Assembly: GCA_001829315.1 (NCBI GenBank)
Contig: MIAY01000036.1
Coordinates: 62,001 to 126,000 of the forward strand
Source of the DNA: Spirochaetes bacterium GWE1_32_154
Lineage (GTDB): Bacteria; Spirochaetota; GWE2-31-10
Direction: 5' to 3'
DNA: 64,000 bases
Shown: positions 50,315 through 59,164 of the stretch, in pieces
Layout of the letters: the number at the start of each line of letters is the position of its first letter
Position numbering within the stretch: position 1 is the stretch's first letter
Made by a program: the position numbers and the translations under genes
The notes under the pieces: generated by a model
The model's input: the letters and a program-made list of their open reading frames with translations, nothing else
Told to the model about the DNA's origin: nothing
Database searches by the model: none

Positions 50315-51367
50315 ATGAAGAAATTTTTATTCGTTTTATTGGCAATTGCCTGTATTTTTTCCTGTAAAAAGAAAGATGAAGTGCTTACCATAAAAATACC
50401 GCTTGTAACATGGGGTGGTTATGCAGCTTTATTTGCAGCAAACGGGGGTGCGAAGGCTTCAGAAGATTCATTATTTTATAAATATGGTAAATTTAAAGTC
50501 GAGTTAGTTCAGGTTGAAGACCCGTCACTTCATTTGCAGGGTTTTTCAAATGATACTTATAAAATTATATGGTCAACAATGGATATGCTTCCTCTACAGT
50601 ATGATTCGCTTAGTAAAGACCCGAGAACAACTCCTGTTGTAATCGGTGCATTTGATTATTCAGCAGGCGGAGACGGCATAATCGTACGGAATAATATTAA
50701 ATCAGCTCAAGATATGAAGGGTAAAACTGCTGTGGTTCCGCAATATCAACCATCCCATTACTTCTTTTTAAAATATCTTAATACCAATGGTATTGATTTT
50801 AAAGATGTTAAAATCATTTATGCAGAAGATGCAATAAAGGCAAAAGATACATTTATCAATGACTCATCAATAGATATTTGTGTTACCTGGTCACCTTTTA
50901 TTTATGATATAACCGATTCAACCAAATCAACGTATGTCGCAGGTTCTTCGTTATTAGAAACAACCGCACCGGGTTCTGCCTTGCATGGTGCAATTGCCGA
51001 TGTGTATGTAGCTCGAGGTGACCTTGTTAAAGATCATCCTGAAATAATCGCAGCTTTTACAAAAGCAATGATTGAAGGATATGAATTATTTAAGACGAAT
51101 AGAGAAAAAACAGCTCATGATATTGCATCATTATTCGGGATTCCCGGTGGAGCAGCAGAAGTTGAATTGATGTTTGGCGATGTTGTCATTTGTGGTAAAG
51201 AAGAAAACAAAATGTTTTTTGATAAAGAATATCAGTTTTCATCATACAATATTTTTAATTCATCAGCAGAGTTGTATACAATTGACGGAAAATTGGACGC
51301 CGGTTTTAATGTTACGCCTGAGATGGTTATTGAACCGAAGTTTATGATGGAACAAATTAATAAATAG
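50315..51367 (+). CDS. ABC substrate-binding lipoprotein (NMT1/SsuA-like)
   Basis: A 350-residue lipoprotein (signal LLAIACIFSC, lipid Cys17). The mature part is a periplasmic binding fold of the nitrate/sulfonate/thiamine-precursor (NMT1/SsuA) class: IPLVTWGGYAALFAANGG, IIWSTMDMLPLQY, DGIIVRNNIKSAQDMKGK, ICVTWSPFIYDI, VKDHPEIIAAFTKAMIEG. It is the first gene of a seven-gene operon and a paralogue of the next gene's binding domain. Substrate unknown; the permease and ATPase genes follow. Confidence 0.85.
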   Translation: MKKFLFVLLAIACIFSCKKKDEVLTIKIPLVTWGGYAALFAANGGAKASEDSLFYKYGKFKVELVQVEDPSLHLQGFSNDTYKIIWSTMDMLPLQYDSLSKDPRTTPVVIGAFDYSAGGDGIIVRNNIKSAQDMKGKTAVVPQYQPSHYFFLKYLNTNGIDFKDVKIIYAEDAIKAKDTFINDSSIDICVTWSPFIYDITDSTKSTYVAGSSLLETTAPGSALHGAIADVYVARGDLVKDHPEIIAAFTKAMIEGYELFKTNREKTAHDIASLFGIPGGAAEVELMFGDVVICGKEENKMFFDKEYQFSSYNIFNSSAELYTIDGKLDAGFNVTPEMVIEPKFMMEQINK

Positions 51368-51382
51368 TAAAAGGAATATTCT

Positions 51383-53056
51383 ATGGATGGAAAAAAAATA
51401 GCCGGGTTACTGGTTTTATTAGTAATTATCGGGGGCGGTGTTTTTGTAAAATTTAAAATGGATAAAGATAAAAATGTATCTGCTAATACAGGTGCTTTAG
51501 ATGTTGCGTATACTTCAAAACCGGATGATATTAAAATTACCGGAGGAAGCGGATATAAATTAGGCACTATCACTCTTGATGGTGAAATAATTCCTCTTAT
51601 TAAAATACCGCTTGTTACATGGGGCGGGTATGCTGGTTTATTTGCTGCTAATAATGGTATAAAACCAAATAAAGAATCACTTTTTTATAAAAACGGTAAG
51701 TTTGTTGTCGAACTTGTCCGGGATGAGAACTCCAATAATCATTTACAAAATTATGTTAATGGAAATTATCCATTAATCTGGTCAACTATGGATATGATGC
51801 CGCTTTTATATAATTCACTCAAAGCGGATAAACGATTAATGCCTCAGGTTCTCGGCCTTTTTGACTGGTCTTTCGGAGGTGACGGGATAGTTGTCCGGGG
51901 AAATATCAATACGCCAAAAGATTTAAAAGGAAAACGGATTGTCACTTCAGGTAATACACCGTCAAATTTCTTTTTGCTATGGCTTTTAGCTCAATCTGAT
52001 ATTAAACCGAGTGAAGTAATTATTCAATATGTAAAAGATGCGGTTGAAGCAAAAGTTGCGTTTGAAAAAGACAAACGGATTGATGCCTGTGTAAGCTGGT
52101 CACCTTTTATTTATGAACTGACTGATTCTTCTTCAAAATCATTTGTGGATGGTGCAAAATTACTTATTACTTCAAAAGATGCCAACCAGTTAATTGCAGA
52201 CTGTTATCTGGTACGAAGTGATTTTGTTAAAGAAAAACCTGAAATTGTTGAGGCTTTTGTCAAATCAATGATGGAGGGGGCTGATCTGTTACCGAAAGTG
52301 AAAGAATCAGTATTTGCCCAAATGGCGACATTGTTTGAACTTCCCGGCGGTGCAAATGAAGCCTCACTCATGCTTGGTGATGTTCACATTGCAAATTTTC
52401 CTGAAAACCAGATGTTTTTTGATCTGGAAAACTCTATAAGTGCCTATAAAATATTCTTTTTATCGCAGGAATATTATAAAAATTTAGGTTCACTTGGAAC
52501 TGATGTTGACTATGATGCAGAATACATCATTAATAAATCATTTTTAACAAAATTCAAAGAAGCTGGAATGTTTGCAAATCAGCAGAATATGATTAGAAAC
52601 TCATTTAATAAAGGTGGAGCTTTTAATATCGGGGACTTAGAGTCAAGCAGAGTAGTTCTCGCTGATGATTTACAAATAAATTTTGAGTCGCAAAAAATCG
52701 AATTTGATATCAATTCTTCTAAACCTGAAATGAAAATAAACCGTGATTTACTGACAAGAGTTTCTGAACAGATGAATGTTCTTGGAACAACAGTTGTGAA
52801 ATTAATCGGTCATCTTGATACATCAAAAGTTGAAGAGTTTAAAGCACAGGGGATGCAGAGTTTTCTTGAAGCCTCAGCACTTGCAAAATTGAATTCTAAA
52901 AAAAGAGCTGAATATGTTAAAAAAATTCTGATTGAAGCTTATGGCTGCGACAAAGATAGAATTATAACGGAAGGAAAAGGCTGGGATATGCCGGTTGATC
53001 CGACAGATCAAACAAAAAACCGTAGAGTTGAAGTGAAATTTTTCTCTCTGGAGTAA
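51383..53056 (+). CDS. Substrate-binding domain fused to OmpA peptidoglycan-binding domain
   Basis: A 557-residue protein with one N-terminal membrane helix (IAGLLVLLVIIGGGVFVKF) and no lipobox. Residues about 70-395 are a binding domain paralogous to the previous gene (IPLVTWGGYAGLFAANNG, LIWSTMDMMPLLYN, DGIVVRGNINTPKDLKGK). Residues about 430-557 are an OmpA-like domain (INFESQKIEFDINSSKPEM, KLIGHLDTSKVEEF, NSKKRAEYVKKILIEA, DPTDQTKNRRVEVKF). The pieces imply an inner-membrane-tethered sensor or transporter receptor fixed to peptidoglycan. Such fusions are rare and occur with TelA-type genes. It starts 16 bases after the previous gene and ends two bases before the permease gene. Confidence 0.87.
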   Translation: MDGKKIAGLLVLLVIIGGGVFVKFKMDKDKNVSANTGALDVAYTSKPDDIKITGGSGYKLGTITLDGEIIPLIKIPLVTWGGYAGLFAANNGIKPNKESLFYKNGKFVVELVRDENSNNHLQNYVNGNYPLIWSTMDMMPLLYNSLKADKRLMPQVLGLFDWSFGGDGIVVRGNINTPKDLKGKRIVTSGNTPSNFFLLWLLAQSDIKPSEVIIQYVKDAVEAKVAFEKDKRIDACVSWSPFIYELTDSSSKSFVDGAKLLITSKDANQLIADCYLVRSDFVKEKPEIVEAFVKSMMEGADLLPKVKESVFAQMATLFELPGGANEASLMLGDVHIANFPENQMFFDLENSISAYKIFFLSQEYYKNLGSLGTDVDYDAEYIINKSFLTKFKEAGMFANQQNMIRNSFNKGGAFNIGDLESSRVVLADDLQINFESQKIEFDINSSKPEMKINRDLLTRVSEQMNVLGTTVVKLIGHLDTSKVEEFKAQGMQSFLEASALAKLNSKKRAEYVKKILIEAYGCDKDRIITEGKGWDMPVDPTDQTKNRRVEVKFFSLE

Positions 53057-53058
53057 TC

Positions 53059-54111
53059 ATGAATACAATATGGATTCGTAAAGAAATAGATTATCATCAA
53101 CGTTTATTCTATAGTGCCTTATTTATTGTTGCATTATTAATCGTTTGGGTTTCAGTAACCACAATTCGTAAGCCGGTAAAAATAATAAGCGCTACTATTT
53201 TTGAATCGATTATTCAGGAGAAAAAACTTGATGAAGCTGATTTAAAAAAAATTGAGGCTCTCTATATTGTAGATGGTAACCGGTATGTTTTAACCGGAAA
53301 ACAATCAAATATTGATAGTATACAAACTCGTGAAATTTTGAAAAGAACCGGTTATTTTTATACGAACGGTCTGTCAAATCCGGTATTTTCACCTAATGTT
53401 CTACCTCATCCGCTTGATATACTAAAAAGTTATCCGCGACTGATAAAAGGAACATCGTCGGACAAAGAAGGTTTTGTATGGAAAAAATCACTTTTTTATG
53501 CCGTTTGGGTTAGTTTACGGCGAGAATTAGTTGCGTTTTTAATTGTTATACTGCTAGCTCTACCTACCGGCGTTTTAATGAGTGCAAGTTCAAAAATCCG
53601 TAATTTTTTAATGCCGATGCTTGTGACCGGGTCATTTATTCCAATCGCAGCACTCATACCGTTAACGCTGGCTTTTTTTGGTATTGGTGAGTTGCAGAAA
53701 GTTATATTCCTTGTGTTTGGTATGTACTTTGTGTTACTCGGACTGGTTATTAAAGAAATTGATGAGGTTGATGAAATTTATTTATCGACAGCGTATACCC
53801 TTGGTTTTAGTCAGTTTCAAACGATTGTGTTTGTTTTAGTGCCAACGGCCATGTCACGTATCTGGAAACATTTTTCTTCGGTTTTCGGGCTTGGCTGGGG
53901 GTATATAATTTTTGCAGAAATGATAAATGCCGGTGGAGGCGACTCGATTAATGGAATCGGCTGGCTTTTTATTGCACGGCAAAGACGTTTTAAAGTTGAT
54001 GAAATGTATGCTATATTTGTTATAATTATTGTATTTGCATTTGTTTTTTCTTATCTTTTCCAATTAGGACATTATCTCATATTCAAAGAAGAGAGGGATT
54101 ACCGCAAATGA
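53059..54111 (+). CDS. ABC transporter permease (SsuC/NrtB-like)
   Basis: A 350-residue membrane protein. One N-terminal helix (LFYSALFIVALLIVWVSV) is followed by a periplasmic insert of about 110 residues (40-150), longer than in SsuC-type permeases, then five or six helices (LVAFLIVILLALPTGVLM, MLVTGSFIPIAALIPLTLAF, VIFLVFGMYFVLLGLVI, YAIFVIIIVFAFVFSYLF). The EAA-type loop that contacts the ATPase is AYTLGFSQFQTIVFVLVPTA. It is followed immediately by the ATPase gene (4-base overlap). The insert is a good candidate for contact with the OmpA-linked binding protein. Confidence 0.85.
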   Translation: MNTIWIRKEIDYHQRLFYSALFIVALLIVWVSVTTIRKPVKIISATIFESIIQEKKLDEADLKKIEALYIVDGNRYVLTGKQSNIDSIQTREILKRTGYFYTNGLSNPVFSPNVLPHPLDILKSYPRLIKGTSSDKEGFVWKKSLFYAVWVSLRRELVAFLIVILLALPTGVLMSASSKIRNFLMPMLVTGSFIPIAALIPLTLAFFGIGELQKVIFLVFGMYFVLLGLVIKEIDEVDEIYLSTAYTLGFSQFQTIVFVLVPTAMSRIWKHFSSVFGLGWGYIIFAEMINAGGGDSINGIGWLFIARQRRFKVDEMYAIFVIIIVFAFVFSYLFQLGHYLIFKEERDYRK

Positions 54112-54992
54112 AAACAAAAACAATTATAGACATAGAACCGGTAATTGACGCATCGATATTTGATCGTCTGCAAAGACTTGATAAAGAACGGCTTAGCGAA
54201 AGTATCCGGGATGTTAGTATTTTAGAAGCGGTTAATGTAGTTAAGTCATTTGGTTCAAATAAAGTTATTCCTGATTTAAACTTCAAAATTCACGATATAC
54301 AAGGTAAATCGGAAGTTATTTGTATGTTAGGCCCTTCAGGCTGCGGCAAGTCAACCATACTGAATTTAATAGCAGGTTTGATTCAACCGACAAGCGGAAC
54401 TCTACTCTATCAAGGCAAACAAATTGACGGACCGGGAATAGAACGCGGTATGATTTTTCAGAAATATTCATCATTTCCATTTTTGAATGTACTTGATAAT
54501 ATTGCCTATCCGCTTATTAAAATTAAAAAGATTAAAAAGAAAGAAGCATACGAACAGGCTTATTACTGGATAGAGAAATTGTATTTGAAAGGTGCCGAAT
54601 ATAAATATCCCAAACAACTCTCAGGCGGAATGCAGCAGCGGGTTGCAATTGCACGAACGCTCTGTTCAAAAGCAAAAATTATTTTAATGGATGAACCGTT
54701 TGGTGCGTTAGACAGAAAAATCAGATGGGAAATGCAGGATTTAATGGCTGAATTGCTTTTTTTCAACCCTGGCGAAGAGGTGACTGTATTTATTGTTACT
54801 CATGATATACCTGAGGCTGTATTTCTCGGTGATAGAATCTGGACAATTCATAAAGGTGGCATATTTTCATCCGATACTATTGAACGGCCGATTGCTGACT
54901 CAAGGTCAACACACATGCAGCATCAATTCAATGAACTGGTAAGTTTTTTTAATGAAAAGATATTTAATTTAGAGTTAAAAGCTAAATCGTAA
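54108..54992 (+). CDS. ABC transporter ATPase (SsuB/TauB-like)
   Basis: A 294-residue ATPase. An N-terminal extension of about 42 residues is followed by a standard nucleotide-binding domain: Walker A GPSGCGKST near residue 75, Q-loop FQKYSSFPFL, signature LSGGMQQR, Walker B IILMDEPFGALD and H-loop VTHD. It powers the permease encoded just before. The extension, absent from SsuB/TauB, may be an operon-specific docking element. It overlaps the permease stop by four bases and lies 12 bases before the vWA gene. Confidence 0.9.
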   Translation: MKTKTIIDIEPVIDASIFDRLQRLDKERLSESIRDVSILEAVNVVKSFGSNKVIPDLNFKIHDIQGKSEVICMLGPSGCGKSTILNLIAGLIQPTSGTLLYQGKQIDGPGIERGMIFQKYSSFPFLNVLDNIAYPLIKIKKIKKKEAYEQAYYWIEKLYLKGAEYKYPKQLSGGMQQRVAIARTLCSKAKIILMDEPFGALDRKIRWEMQDLMAELLFFNPGEEVTVFIVTHDIPEAVFLGDRIWTIHKGGIFSSDTIERPIADSRSTHMQHQFNELVSFFNEKIFNLELKAKS

Positions 54993-55004
54993 TGAGAGGT
55001 ACAT

Positions 55005-55847
55005 ATGGCAACAAAAAAAAATAATGGCTTAGGAACTGTAGTTTTTATTATGTTTATTCTGATACTGTTTTTTTCTCAGGTTAATAAATGTTCATCAGGA
55101 AATAAAAAAAATACTTCTGCATATTCTAAAGCTAAAAAAGCTCAGAATGAACTTCAATTTTCTGATGATTTCAATATAAGCATTGCAAATCAGGATGATT
55201 TAGGTTTATCACTCGTGCTGGCAGTTGATTGTTCAGGTTCAATGGACGATTACCCGACTGAAGGCGGAAAAAGTAAAAAATTTGAAGCAGCATCAGAGTC
55301 AATTAAAGAAATACTGGTGTTTATTAAAGATTTTTATAAAGAGAATTTAGAAAAAGATTCAATTATTCTGAAATTAAGTATTGTAACATTCAGTGATGTC
55401 GTAAACATTGTCTATCCGCTTACTGAAATTGATGAAAACACTATAAATGCAATGATTGAGTTCGCCAGTCAACCGTCCAATTTTGATCCTGACGGTCAGA
55501 CTGCAATAGGTGACACGATTGCAAAAGGTGCAGAGATTCTGGCCCAATCCGGTACGATTTTTAAAAGTTTAATCATTATTTCTGATGGAGAAAATACAGC
55601 CGGTACTGATCCGGGGCTTGTTCTTGATTCATTAGTTAATAACCGCAACAATAAATCAACAAAAGATTTTCCGGTTTTAACAAACAATATTCTTGTAAGT
55701 TTTGTCGGGTTTGATATTGATACGGGGAAATTTACTGCTTTGGAACAGGGTGGAGCTAAATTAACTCAGGCAGATAATAAAGAACAGTTAAATGAAACCT
55801 TGAAGAATCTTTTTCTTTCTGATATTTCTAAACTCGAAGCTGAATAA
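55005..55847 (+). CDS. Membrane-anchored von Willebrand factor A protein
   Basis: A 280-residue protein with an N-terminal hydrophobic segment (LGTVVFIMFILILFFSQV, next to a Cys that could also be a lipid site), a short linker, then a vWA domain (about 68-275). The metal-ion adhesion site is complete: LAVDCSGSMDD (DxSxS), the Thr in DPDGQTAIGD, and the Asp in IISDGENTAG. vWA domains of this type act as metal-dependent protein-binding modules and often accompany AAA, TelA or Ter-type stress proteins. Here it lies between the ABC set and XpaC/TelA, suggesting a bridge between transport and stress-response parts. Confidence 0.85.
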   Translation: MATKKNNGLGTVVFIMFILILFFSQVNKCSSGNKKNTSAYSKAKKAQNELQFSDDFNISIANQDDLGLSLVLAVDCSGSMDDYPTEGGKSKKFEAASESIKEILVFIKDFYKENLEKDSIILKLSIVTFSDVVNIVYPLTEIDENTINAMIEFASQPSNFDPDGQTAIGDTIAKGAEILAQSGTIFKSLIIISDGENTAGTDPGLVLDSLVNNRNNKSTKDFPVLTNNILVSFVGFDIDTGKFTALEQGGAKLTQADNKEQLNETLKNLFLSDISKLEAE

Positions 55848-55867
55848 AATGGGGTTGGTGAGAACGT

Positions 55868-56479
55868 ATGGCTAATAAACAAATTTTTGGTAATATTTCA
55901 GCCGGTATTATTGGTGGCGGATTATTTCTGTTTTTTTTACTATTTCTTGATTTATCGATTGTTCCGTCAATTATAGCCGGAGCTGCCGGTTATGCTGGGG
56001 GTGCGTTAGCATTTGGCGGGAAGAAAAAAGAGCTTGAGTTTATAGCCGAAGGTGTAACACAGGAAAAACTTGATGAAATATTAAAACAAGGTAACTTGAA
56101 GGTAAAGGTATTAAAAGATTTGGAGGCTAAAATTACCAATAAAGTGGTAACACAAAAAATTGAAGGTATTATTGAAGTTGTTGAAAAAATATTTGATGAT
56201 CTTAAAAAAGACCCGAAAGATGTGAAAACTGCCCGTCAATTTTTAATTTACTATCTTGATGCTACAATAAATATTCTCGAACGATATCACAGCATTTGTT
56301 CAACGAATATCAGTTCTATAGAAATAAAAAAATCGCTTGATAATGTAGAATCATTATTAGATACTATTAAAGACGGTTTTGAAAAGCAACTCATAAAGTT
56401 ATTAAATGATGACATTCTTGATCTTGATACAGAAATAAAACTACTAGATCAAACAATGAAATCTGAAGGTTTAAAATAA
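55868..56479 (+). CDS. XpaC-like membrane protein
   Basis: A 203-residue protein. Two hydrophobic segments at the start (IIGGGLFLFFLLFLDLS, VPSIIAGAAGYAGGALAFGG) are followed by a soluble helical part (about 60-203) rich in Lys/Glu and Leu. This layout and the position directly before a TelA-like gene match the XpaC family, which is commonly encoded next to TelA. The function of XpaC is not established; the old phosphatase-like label is doubtful. It is 20 bases after the vWA gene and 9 before the TelA gene. Confidence 0.6.
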   Translation: MANKQIFGNISAGIIGGGLFLFFLLFLDLSIVPSIIAGAAGYAGGALAFGGKKKELEFIAEGVTQEKLDEILKQGNLKVKVLKDLEAKITNKVVTQKIEGIIEVVEKIFDDLKKDPKDVKTARQFLIYYLDATINILERYHSICSTNISSIEIKKSLDNVESLLDTIKDGFEKQLIKLLNDDILDLDTEIKLLDQTMKSEGLK

Positions 56480-56488
56480 GGGGGATGT

Positions 56489-57571
56489 ATGTCTGACAGT
56501 TTAATTACAAAACAATCCATGGAATTAGTTGATGTTAAAAACTTTTCCGGTGATGAAATGAAAAGAATTCAAGCAATCTCACAAGAGATTAATATTACTG
56601 ACACTCAGGGTGTTATTACATTTGGTATTTCTGCTCAAAAAGATGTTTCAGAATTTGCCGATACGATTCTTCAACAGGTCAGATCAAAAGATTCGGGATA
56701 TGTTGGTGACGTATTAACCGATCTGGTTATTAAAGTAAAAGATTTAAAAGTTGATTCATTAAGCGGAAATGGTTCTTTTCTTGGTTCTATCCCGATTGTG
56801 GGTAATTTTCTTGATGCGGTAAAGCGATTTATTATGCAGTATGAAAAAGTAAGTGTGCAAATTGAGAAAATCGTCGAAGAACTCGATAAAGCCCGCATGA
56901 CTTTATTGCGTGATATTACTCTTTTGGACGGGATGTATGATAAAAATGCCGAGTATTTAAAGAATCTTGACTTTTTCATAGCTGCCGGTCAAATCAGATT
57001 GAAAGAACTTAAAGAAACTATGCTTGTTGATTTAAAGAAAAAAGCAGATGAAACCAATGACCCGGCAGATGCTCAGAGATTACAGGATTTTACGCAAGCC
57101 TTAAACAGATTTGAGAAGAAAATTCACGATTTAAAACTTTCACGAATGATTGCAATTCAAACTTCTCCACAGCTTCGATTAATTCAGAATAACGATCAGG
57201 CACTTGTTGAAAAAATACAGAGTTCTATTTTAAATACGATTCCATTATGGAAAAATCAGATGGTAATCGCAATTACTTTATTCAGACAGAAAAAAGCGGT
57301 TAAATTACAACGCGAAGTGACACAAACAACAAATGATTTGTTGTTAAAAAACTCAGAATTACTGAAAATGAATAGTATTGATGTCGCAAAGGAAATGGAG
57401 CGGGGCATTGTTGATATTGAAACACTCAAAAAAGTTAATAGTGATCTTATTTCGACAATTGAAGAAACATTAAAAATCCAACAGGAAGGAAAAGCTAAAA
57501 GAGCTCAAGCTGAACAGGATTTAATTCAGATGGAAAATGAATTAAAGAGTAAATTGAAATCGGCGATTTAA
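56489..57571 (+). CDS. TelA-like toxic-anion/stress-resistance protein
   Basis: A 360-residue cytoplasmic, mostly helical protein of the TelA family (length 350-400 is typical). Recognisable parts are FADTILQQVRSKDSGYVGDV, NFLDAVKRFIMQYEKV, LLRDITLLDGMYDKNAEYL and the C-terminal KLQREVTQTTNDLLLKNSEL and MNSIDVAKEMERGIVDIETL. TelA is linked to resistance to tellurite, some antibiotics and phage-type stress, by an unknown mechanism. It ends the seven-gene operon; the next gene begins 36 bases later with its own ribosome site. Confidence 0.82.
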   Translation: MSDSLITKQSMELVDVKNFSGDEMKRIQAISQEINITDTQGVITFGISAQKDVSEFADTILQQVRSKDSGYVGDVLTDLVIKVKDLKVDSLSGNGSFLGSIPIVGNFLDAVKRFIMQYEKVSVQIEKIVEELDKARMTLLRDITLLDGMYDKNAEYLKNLDFFIAAGQIRLKELKETMLVDLKKKADETNDPADAQRLQDFTQALNRFEKKIHDLKLSRMIAIQTSPQLRLIQNNDQALVEKIQSSILNTIPLWKNQMVIAITLFRQKKAVKLQREVTQTTNDLLLKNSELLKMNSIDVAKEMERGIVDIETLKKVNSDLISTIEETLKIQQEGKAKRAQAEQDLIQMENELKSKLKSAI

Positions 57572-57607: not shown

Positions 57608-59164
57608 ATGAAGAATTTACCAATCGGGATAAGCACATTAAATACAATTATTGAAAATAATATGGTGTATGTTGATAAAACAGAAATTGCCCATAGATTA
57701 GTTATTACACCGGGGAGATACTTTCTCTCTCGTCCCCGTCGATTTGGTAAATCTCTCTTTCTTGATATTCTCAAAGAAATTTTTGAAGGAAATAAAGACC
57801 TTTTTAAAGGTCTTTTTATCTATGATAACTGGAATTGGGATAAGAAATATCCTGTTATCAAGATAGATTTTGCCGGAGGAACTATTCACAATCTGGTTGA
57901 TCTTGAAAATAAACTTAATGCCGTTTTAAGCCGTTATGAATCAAAGTTTGATATTAACCTAAAAAATAATGGTATATCAAACCGTTTAAGTGAATTAATC
58001 AATGTTGTCGCCGATAAATACAATTCAAAAGTTGTTATTCTTGTTGACGAATATGATAAACCTCTTCTTGATAATATCGAAAATATTCCTGCTGCAATGA
58101 TTGTACGGGACGGGCTTAAAAATCTTTATTCAGTCATCAAAGAACAGGATGCAAACATACAATTTGTTTTTCTCACCGGAGTCAGTAAGTTTAGTAAGGT
58201 TAGTATTTTCTCCGGTATAAATAATCTTGAAGACATCACATTAAATTCTGATTATGCGACAATTTGCGGGTACACACAAAAAGATCTTGAAACAAGTTTT
58301 AATCAACATCTTGAAGGTGTTGATATGGTGCAACTGAAAGAATGGTATAACGGATATAATTTTCTGGGCGATAAAGTATATAATCCATTTGATATTCTGC
58401 TTTTTATCAGTAATCAGAAAACATTTAAAAACTATTGGTTTGAAACAGGTACACCGACATTTTTAATAAAACTATTTCAGAAAAACAACTATTTTCTTCC
58501 TGATCTGGATACTATTGAACTTGGTGAAGAATTATTAAGCTCTTTTGAGATAGAAAAAATCGAACCGGCTACCTTACTTTTTCAATCAGGCTATCTAACT
58601 ATTAAGGAAACAAAAACAATGTCCGGGAAACTCGTTTTCTCACTGGTGTTTCCTAACCGGGAAGTAAAAACCTCATTTAACGAATATTTAATAACCGGAT
58701 ACACTGAAATATCCGCCGATAAAATACGGTATGAAGAACCGATATATAATGCATTTATGAACAGTGATATGGATGCCCTCCATAAAGCGTTAGTACGACT
58801 TTTCGCCGGTATTCCCTATCGAAATTTTACCAATAACGATCTGGTTAACTTTGAAGGGTATTACGCATCAGTATTGTATGCTTTTTTCTCTGCCATTAAT
58901 TGCTGTGTTATACCGGAAGATGTTACTAATAAAGGTCAGGCTGATATGACGGTGAAACTTGGTAATACCATTTGTGTTATGGAAATAAAAGTGCTAACCA
59001 GAAAACCGAGAGGAAAAAATGAAGCGTTAGCACAAATAAAGAAGATGAAATATTCAGAAAAATACAAAAATCTGCCGGGTAAACATGTATTTGAATTGGG
59101 GATGGTATTTGATCCTGAAAAGAGAAGTCTTCTTAAGTTTAACTGGAACAAAGTTTCTCATTAA
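57608..59164 (+). CDS. AAA-ATPase-like / PD-(D/E)XK nuclease protein (DUF1703 type)
   Basis: A 518-residue protein of the large AAA_like plus PDDEXK_9 family. The N-terminal hallmark is LPIGISTLNTIIENNMVYVD followed by KT and the P-loop-like SRPRRFGKSLFL; Walker B is VVILVDEYDKPLLD. The C-terminal nuclease fold has ADMTVKLGNTICVMEIKV (E-x-K metal site) near residue 450. These genes are common and often multicopy in spirochaetes and Bacteroidetes; the role is unproven but thought to be in defence or conflict. It is complete and in the same direction as the TelA operon. Confidence 0.87.
   Translation: MKNLPIGISTLNTIIENNMVYVDKTEIAHRLVITPGRYFLSRPRRFGKSLFLDILKEIFEGNKDLFKGLFIYDNWNWDKKYPVIKIDFAGGTIHNLVDLENKLNAVLSRYESKFDINLKNNGISNRLSELINVVADKYNSKVVILVDEYDKPLLDNIENIPAAMIVRDGLKNLYSVIKEQDANIQFVFLTGVSKFSKVSIFSGINNLEDITLNSDYATICGYTQKDLETSFNQHLEGVDMVQLKEWYNGYNFLGDKVYNPFDILLFISNQKTFKNYWFETGTPTFLIKLFQKNNYFLPDLDTIELGEELLSSFEIEKIEPATLLFQSGYLTIKETKTMSGKLVFSLVFPNREVKTSFNEYLITGYTEISADKIRYEEPIYNAFMNSDMDALHKALVRLFAGIPYRNFTNNDLVNFEGYYASVLYAFFSAINCCVIPEDVTNKGQADMTVKLGNTICVMEIKVLTRKPRGKNEALAQIKKMKYSEKYKNLPGKHVFELGMVFDPEKRSLLKFNWNKVSH

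Follow-up and report, generated by a model that had tools for sequence, protein, structure and literature searches.

A spirochaetal operon joining SBP-OmpA and ABC genes to vWA, XpaC and TelA, and related gene sets with other partners in Bacteroidota and very large phages

The operon and its products

The window, a stretch of 64,000 nucleotides, belongs to a spirochaete-like genome (4.03 Mb, 43 contigs, 97.6% complete). At positions 50315–57571 it carries an operon of seven co-directional genes, listed here with their Pfam matches:

50315..51367, + strand: SBP1, an NMT1-type substrate-binding protein (SBP), likely a lipoprotein (NMT1, 6e-9)
51383..53056, + strand: SBP-OmpA, an SBP with a C-terminal OmpA domain (NMT1, 2e-9; OmpA, 7e-7)
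53059..54111, + strand: ABC permease, TauC/SsuC type (BPD_transp_1, 1e-16)
54108..54992, + strand: ABC ATPase (ABC_tran, 4e-30)
55005..55847, + strand: vWA protein (VWA_2, 7e-8), with a membrane anchor at residues 5–31 by hydropathy
55868..56479, + strand: XpaC (PF10112, Halogen_Hydrol; 2e-35)
56489..57571, + strand: TelA (PF05816; 8e-117)

The seven ORFs, their common direction and their families are as originally predicted. The gaps between them are, in order, 15, 2, −4, 12, 20 and 9 nt. The overlap that had been described is present, but the upper limit then given for the spacing, 36 nt, is the distance to the next ORF downstream (AAA-ATPase-like/PD-(D/E)XK), which lies outside the set, and the real maximum is 20 nt.

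SBP1 is a paralogue of the SBP part of SBP-OmpA (49% identical over that part) and has no OmpA domain. SBP-OmpA itself consists of an N-terminal membrane anchor (residues 3–27 by hydropathy), an NMT1-type SBP domain and an OmpA/peptidoglycan-binding domain in which D479 and R508 are retained. The permease has five hydrophobic stretches by hydropathy, the first two of which (TM1, 13–40; TM2, 146–180) are separated by a periplasmic loop of ~105 residues. This is close to the extra domain of about 110 residues that had been proposed, although the size of the excess was overstated, as the net gain over TauC is only ~65–75 residues. The ATPase retains intact Walker A, LSGG, Walker B and H-loop motifs; its ABC domain begins near residue 38, so that the N-terminal extension is real, with a length of ~37 rather than 42 residues. 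Neither feature is a hallmark of the system, as had been supposed, since both are variable or absent in relatives: the permease loop differs in length or sequence, or is missing, in relatives other than the spirochaete genome G316 described below, where it is retained, and permeases from the taxonomic order of the window's genome align with the window permease only from residue 106 onward.

The vWA protein is MIDAS-bearing and membrane-anchored, as predicted, with the motif intact (D75-x-S77-x-S79, T166, D194) and the domain predicted to face the periplasm. XpaC is modelled (pLDDT 87) with two N-terminal TM helices, where hydropathy also places a hydrophobic region, and a cytoplasmic helical bundle. 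The TelA model (pLDDT 70) is all-helical, with two long antiparallel helices (104–189 and 192–289) that form a long hairpin; the protein is soluble, having no hydrophobic membrane stretch by hydropathy, and is the only TelA in the 97.6% complete genome. Since anchors or hydrophobic regions occur in SBP-OmpA, the permease, the vWA protein and XpaC and none in TelA, the unit spans peptidoglycan, periplasm, inner membrane and cytoplasm.

The gene set in spirochaetes and on Vibrio plasmids

All seven genes recur in identical order, with 43–68% identity, in G316, a distant spirochaete of another family outside the order of the window's genome (68% for SBP1, 66% for SBP-OmpA, 63% for the ATPase). 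The genes flanking the G316 operon differ on both sides, which indicates that the set ends at TelA; the downstream AAA-ATPase-like/PDDEXK ORF was rejected as a member because it is absent there. These are the only two chromosomes found with the exact seven-gene set. A failure to find the genes together elsewhere had been named beforehand as the outcome that would count against a functional unit. They were found together in G316, other spirochaetes, Vibrio plasmids and phage contigs, and the conservation of seven genes in one order is more than chance would give and upholds the claim of a coherent envelope-spanning unit.

Other spirochaetes have rearranged versions. In five genomes (G188, G194, G169, G076 and G218), an SBP, a permease and an ATPase (the last not seen in the G076 stretch) are followed by SBP-OmpA, vWA and a PstS-like/OmpA gene; XpaC mostly lies nearby on the opposite strand, and the TelA matches are on contigs other than that of the SBP-OmpA locus. 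Two families (f31 and f38) have SBP-OmpA-vWA without adjoining ABC genes, in f31 also with an XpaC-like gene, and in three genomes that hold SBP-OmpA-vWA(-XpaC) (G379, G332 and G344, 95–99% complete) no related permease was found at E<=1e-20. Within the order of the window's genome, a single locus of G006 and G008 combines permease, ATPase, an ORF for a 2-TM helical protein and vWA, with the SBPs at separate loci; TelA was not found in these two genomes (86–87% complete). G005 has only permease-ATPase and SBP1. SBP genes are isolated loci in some relatives, and in the spirochaete G004 the XpaC-TelA pair stands by itself, not joined to ABC, SBP or vWA genes in the same run.

Six records of Vibrio plasmids match SBP-OmpA. 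In the two that were read, a single run comprises ATPase, SBP-OmpA, vWA, PstS-like/OmpA, a membrane helical hypothetical ORF, TelA, SBP and permease.

A sister branch with coiled-coil partners

Scanning 84,980 species genomes for SBP-OmpA yielded 285 relatives. Among the best 80 of these 285 loci, mostly from Bacteroidota, the commonest gene orders were c228-c339-SBP-OmpA-permease-ATPase (23) and c228-c339-SBP-OmpA (20). Of the two coiled-coil partners, c228 is soluble and c339 (339 aa) has two N-terminal TM helices ahead of a long coiled coil. Twelve loci include, in addition, an AAA+ ATPase of ~630 aa. Besides Bacteroidota, some spirochaetes and a scatter of species from other phyla have this version of the core. 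The window operon is one branch of a larger SBP-OmpA/permease/ATPase family with differing partners.

A tree of SBP-OmpA (104 rows) has 85 tips with a labelled partner, 72 of the coiled-coil class and 13 of the XpaC/TelA/vWA class, and a single change of partner class is needed across them, albeit on a quick, midpoint-rooted tree with long branches and open forks; the two rows from Planctomycetota fall close to the TelA clade. As XpaC/TelA accompany the core in one branch and the 2-TM and soluble coiled-coil proteins in the other, and as the kind of partner follows receptor phylogeny with only one change, receptor and partner appear to co-evolve.

No profile similarity was found between the two partner classes. 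Profile comparisons of XpaC and TelA as distant homologues of PspA/ESCRT-III or of c339/c228 gave probabilities of about 0–5% (under 1% against PspA profiles), and Foldseek searches of the PDB returned no significant match for either protein (best E ~0.1; for TelA with a model of pLDDT 70 only). Any functional parallel is therefore positional rather than homologous, and position is the sole argument for the notion that different partners do the same job. Nor could c339 be accepted as a true PspA: hits to PF04012 were sub-threshold (13 of 22 members, best 6e-5), and profile-profile comparison with spirochaete PspA gave no confirmation of a PspA-like nature. No PspA (PF04012) was found at 1e-10 in the genome of the window.

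Copies on phages

The IMG/VR collection contains 18 relatives of SBP-OmpA. Most of the loci L213–L227 have the complete coiled-coil version, while L210–L212 have XpaC-TelA-SBP-OmpA-vWA; the L210 contig encodes a portal and a major head protein and that of L212 a tail sheath, so that both are phages, of the myophage type. Among named phages, SBP-OmpA matches that cover 80% or more of the query occur in 15 Lak records, two of a 735-kb phage and two of Bacillus phage G, all with genomes of 497–735 kb (540 kb for Lak phages). Lak-A1, Lak-C1 and the 735-kb phage have the order c228-c339-SBP-OmpA-permease-ATPase, in Lak with two small extra ORFs. In phage G, whose family phrog_25518 is matched by the window's SBP-OmpA at 3e-27, a permease (gp243), an ATPase (gp245), gp246, a TM coiled-coil protein (gp247) and two SBP-OmpA proteins (gp249/gp250) lie together. 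This phage is probably a carrier of the coiled-coil branch; gp246 and gp247 gave no significant match to the c228/c339 families and resemble them in position and build only. On the SBP-OmpA tree at least six changes between viral and cellular state are needed.

In Lak, in-frame TAG is absent from the five core genes and from TelA, while neighbouring genes use it heavily: the numbers of TAG vs CAA/CAG codons are 18 vs 19 in a 717-aa ORF and 0 vs 60 in the five core genes. The core genes and TelA can therefore be read with the standard code of the host. In recoded phages, readability in the standard code fits expression before the late genes. Many other Lak genes nearby also lack TAG.

These copies raise the question of a device for defence or superinfection exclusion, in which a wall-anchored ABC complex would sense or block genome entry, TelA/XpaC would form a sub-membrane barrier, and phages would turn the system against competitors. 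PMC7824862 proposes that TelA forms sub-membrane structures against superinfection, as a Ter-type barrier in jumbo phages, and the complete core on Lak and the 735-kb phage, together with the presence of the TelA version on plasmids and other myophages, would agree with such a role. We nevertheless consider it distinctly unlikely, as the window operon sits among ordinary-looking chromosomal genes and the system is widespread on Bacteroidota chromosomes, where the loci seen have no evident defence genes around them. The terms “OmpA” and “ABC transporter” do not occur in PMC7824862, and the SBP-OmpA system is not mentioned in the Lak taxonomy paper or in a 2026 jumbo-phage review.

Comparison with known systems

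With the SsuABC/TauABC/NrtABC importers the operon shares the families to which its SBP, permease and ATPase belong by fold, as well as catalytic motifs, and its ABC core is complete and resembles a type-I importer. The operon differs from them in the fusion of an SBP to an anchor and OmpA, the second SBP, the permease loop and the downstream vWA-XpaC-TelA genes. The locus might accordingly encode an importer of the sulfonate/taurine/nitrate class with a receptor fixed to the wall, the wall-stress genes being independent and merely sharing the promoter. The best NCBIfam-type matches of the ABC parts are indeed the SsuA/TauA, TauC/SaoP and SaoA/TauB-like families, all ABC motifs are intact, and SBP genes stand alone in some relatives. 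All scores, however, are far below the equivalog/subfamily cut-offs (SsuA_fam, 62.5 vs 163.5; TauC, 75.9 vs 342; SaoA, 189 vs 360), the type of partner tracks SBP-OmpA phylogeny, SBP-OmpA-vWA-XpaC is kept in some genomes where no related permease was found, and no substrate or catabolic enzyme is encoded among the operon genes. An importer of this kind is thus unlikely in our judgement. Solute uptake is possible given intact SBP domains and an ABC core of ordinary catalytic appearance, and import of a ligand may belong to the cycle even if its purpose is envelope maintenance. The original view that the role is other than nutrient uptake has become likelier through the tracking of partner and phylogeny, the occurrence of SBP-OmpA-vWA without ABC genes and the core on huge phages; its further part, that the ABC core acts mechanically or in signalling, is what we infer.

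In Firmicutes XpaC adjoins TelA in the same order as in the window (PF10112 beside PF05816), a pair represented by lmo1966-1967 and by B. subtilis yaaN. Unlike in the window, no ABC, SBP or vWA gene shares a run with the pair in the one Firmicutes plasmid locus that was read.

Ter stress-response systems have TelA and a vWA protein in common with the window, whereas TerB/C/D/F, PRTase and HAD genes are not among its operon genes. An operon for sensing and detoxifying toxic, tellurite-like oxyanions, with the SBP binding the oxyanion and TelA conferring resistance, would suit the name of the TelA family and the nitrate/sulfonate type of the SBPs. In a result cited by PMC12791056, mutation of telA raises the sensitivity of Listeria to nisin 4-fold and to tellurite 2-fold. 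The tellurite effect, though in favour, is mild and smaller than that on nisin; moreover, TelA does not adjoin the coiled-coil branch and the operon has no reductase or Ter genes, all of which makes this explanation highly improbable.

The nearest description is in PMC11237479 (Ravi et al. 2024), an in silico study, one passage of which describes operons that combine TM-bearing PspA/Snf7 with AAA+, an ABC ATPase, a permease and PBPB-OmpA, and suggests that membrane remodelling and transport are linked. What these operons share with the window is the SBP-OmpA fusion, the permease and the ABC ATPase, along with a helical partner associated with the membrane; where they have PspA/Snf7 and AAA+, the window has SBP1, vWA, XpaC and TelA. 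No AAA+ ATPase is among the operon genes, the downstream AAA-ATPase_like/PDDEXK ORF being of a different family. The Bacteroidota coiled-coil branch, in which several loci have an AAA+ ATPase following, probably belongs to the published type. The statement in the original prediction that no characterised system has this set must therefore be narrowed, as the combination of ABC genes with PBPB-OmpA is not wholly new; for the XpaC-TelA-vWA branch and the phage copies, no description was found in the searchable literature.

A possible mechanism and its implications

We tentatively favour, with confidence a little short of even, a reading in which the operon encodes an ATP-driven envelope sensor or brace that bridges peptidoglycan, inner membrane and a helical scaffold below the membrane. 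Several lines of evidence point this way: the exact seven-gene order in G316; the Vibrio plasmids and myophage contigs that carry core parts with TelA; the single change of partner class among 85 labelled tips; the other 2-TM helical ORF between ATPase and vWA in genomes of the window's order where no TelA was found; the persistence of SBP-OmpA-vWA(-XpaC) without a related permease in three near-complete genomes; and the lack of substrate enzymes in the operon. The sensitivity of the Listeria telA mutant to nisin and tellurite (cited in PMC12791056) and the sub-membrane structures proposed for TelA (PMC7824862) are further reasons.

In such a device, SBP-OmpA would report the state of the gap between wall and membrane, or bind an envelope-derived ligand, and its docking on the permease would drive the ATPase. 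The conformational cycle of the ABC core would then regulate assembly of an XpaC-TelA scaffold on the cytoplasmic face, by which the membrane may be stabilised or remodelled under envelope stress, with the vWA protein as a periplasmic adaptor. The phage version might keep the envelope of a long-infected cell intact, or alter it against rivals.

On a wider view, we regard as possible, though rather doubtful, a class of ABC machines not recognised before, anchored to peptidoglycan and serving to power or gate scaffolds below the membrane. It would have two branches (XpaC-TelA-vWA and membrane coiled-coil), and several of the largest phages known (Lak, the 735-kb phage and probably phage G) would have captured it as a means of managing the host envelope while they infect. 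The idea is testable, since phage G is in culture and its permease, ATPase, two SBP-OmpA and membrane coiled-coil ORF appear to form a related set. A concrete, testable model for TelA (PF05816), a mobile and widespread protein so far unexplained, comes from tying it and XpaC to a wall-anchored ABC machine whose receptor follows the scaffold partner. If true, TelA and XpaC, a pair long without explanation, would be placed in an energised envelope complex, and a new coupling of energy to envelope integrity would stand beside Psp, Lia and Tol-Pal.

Flanking gene and permease loop

Downstream of the window's telA lies a further reading frame, which is not conserved together with the operon:

57608-59164, AAA-ATPase-like/PD-(D/E)XK ORF, starting 36 nt past telA

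In the permeases of loci L110, L182 and L179, the loop between TM1 and TM2 carries extra sequence that differs between lineages, as though unrelated domains were tolerated at this insertion site.

Relatives on plasmids and phages

The window's branch recurs as XpaC-TelA-SBP-OmpA-vWA on myophage contigs from IMG/VR (L210-L212), where adjoining ABC genes are absent. The TelA version on the large PRTRC-bearing Vibrio plasmids pIFO15642 and pSEA1 (L038, L039) is accompanied by an extra PstS-like/OmpA protein. In several spirochaetes (L190, L187, L189) a second fusion type, a PstS-like SBP joined to OmpA, adjoins vWA. An SPFH protein precedes XpaC and TelA in the 469-kb Sinorhizobium phage Phosso (350201-367175; L239), and a Paracoccus plasmid (L042) also has SPFH, there located after TelA.

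The ABC/SBP-OmpA core is also present in huge phages:

L236, Lak-A1, 351570-372886: complete coiled-coil version
L238, Lak-C1: complete coiled-coil version
L237, LR756501, a 735 kb phage: complete coiled-coil version
L235, Bacillus phage G, gp243-gp250: a permease, an ATPase and a pair of SBP-OmpA proteins

In the Lak phages (L236, L238, L242) the core operon and TelA contain zero in-frame TAG codons, and some neighbouring genes are heavily TAG-recoded; from this absence of TAG, the core operon and TelA are candidates for an early-class gene set.
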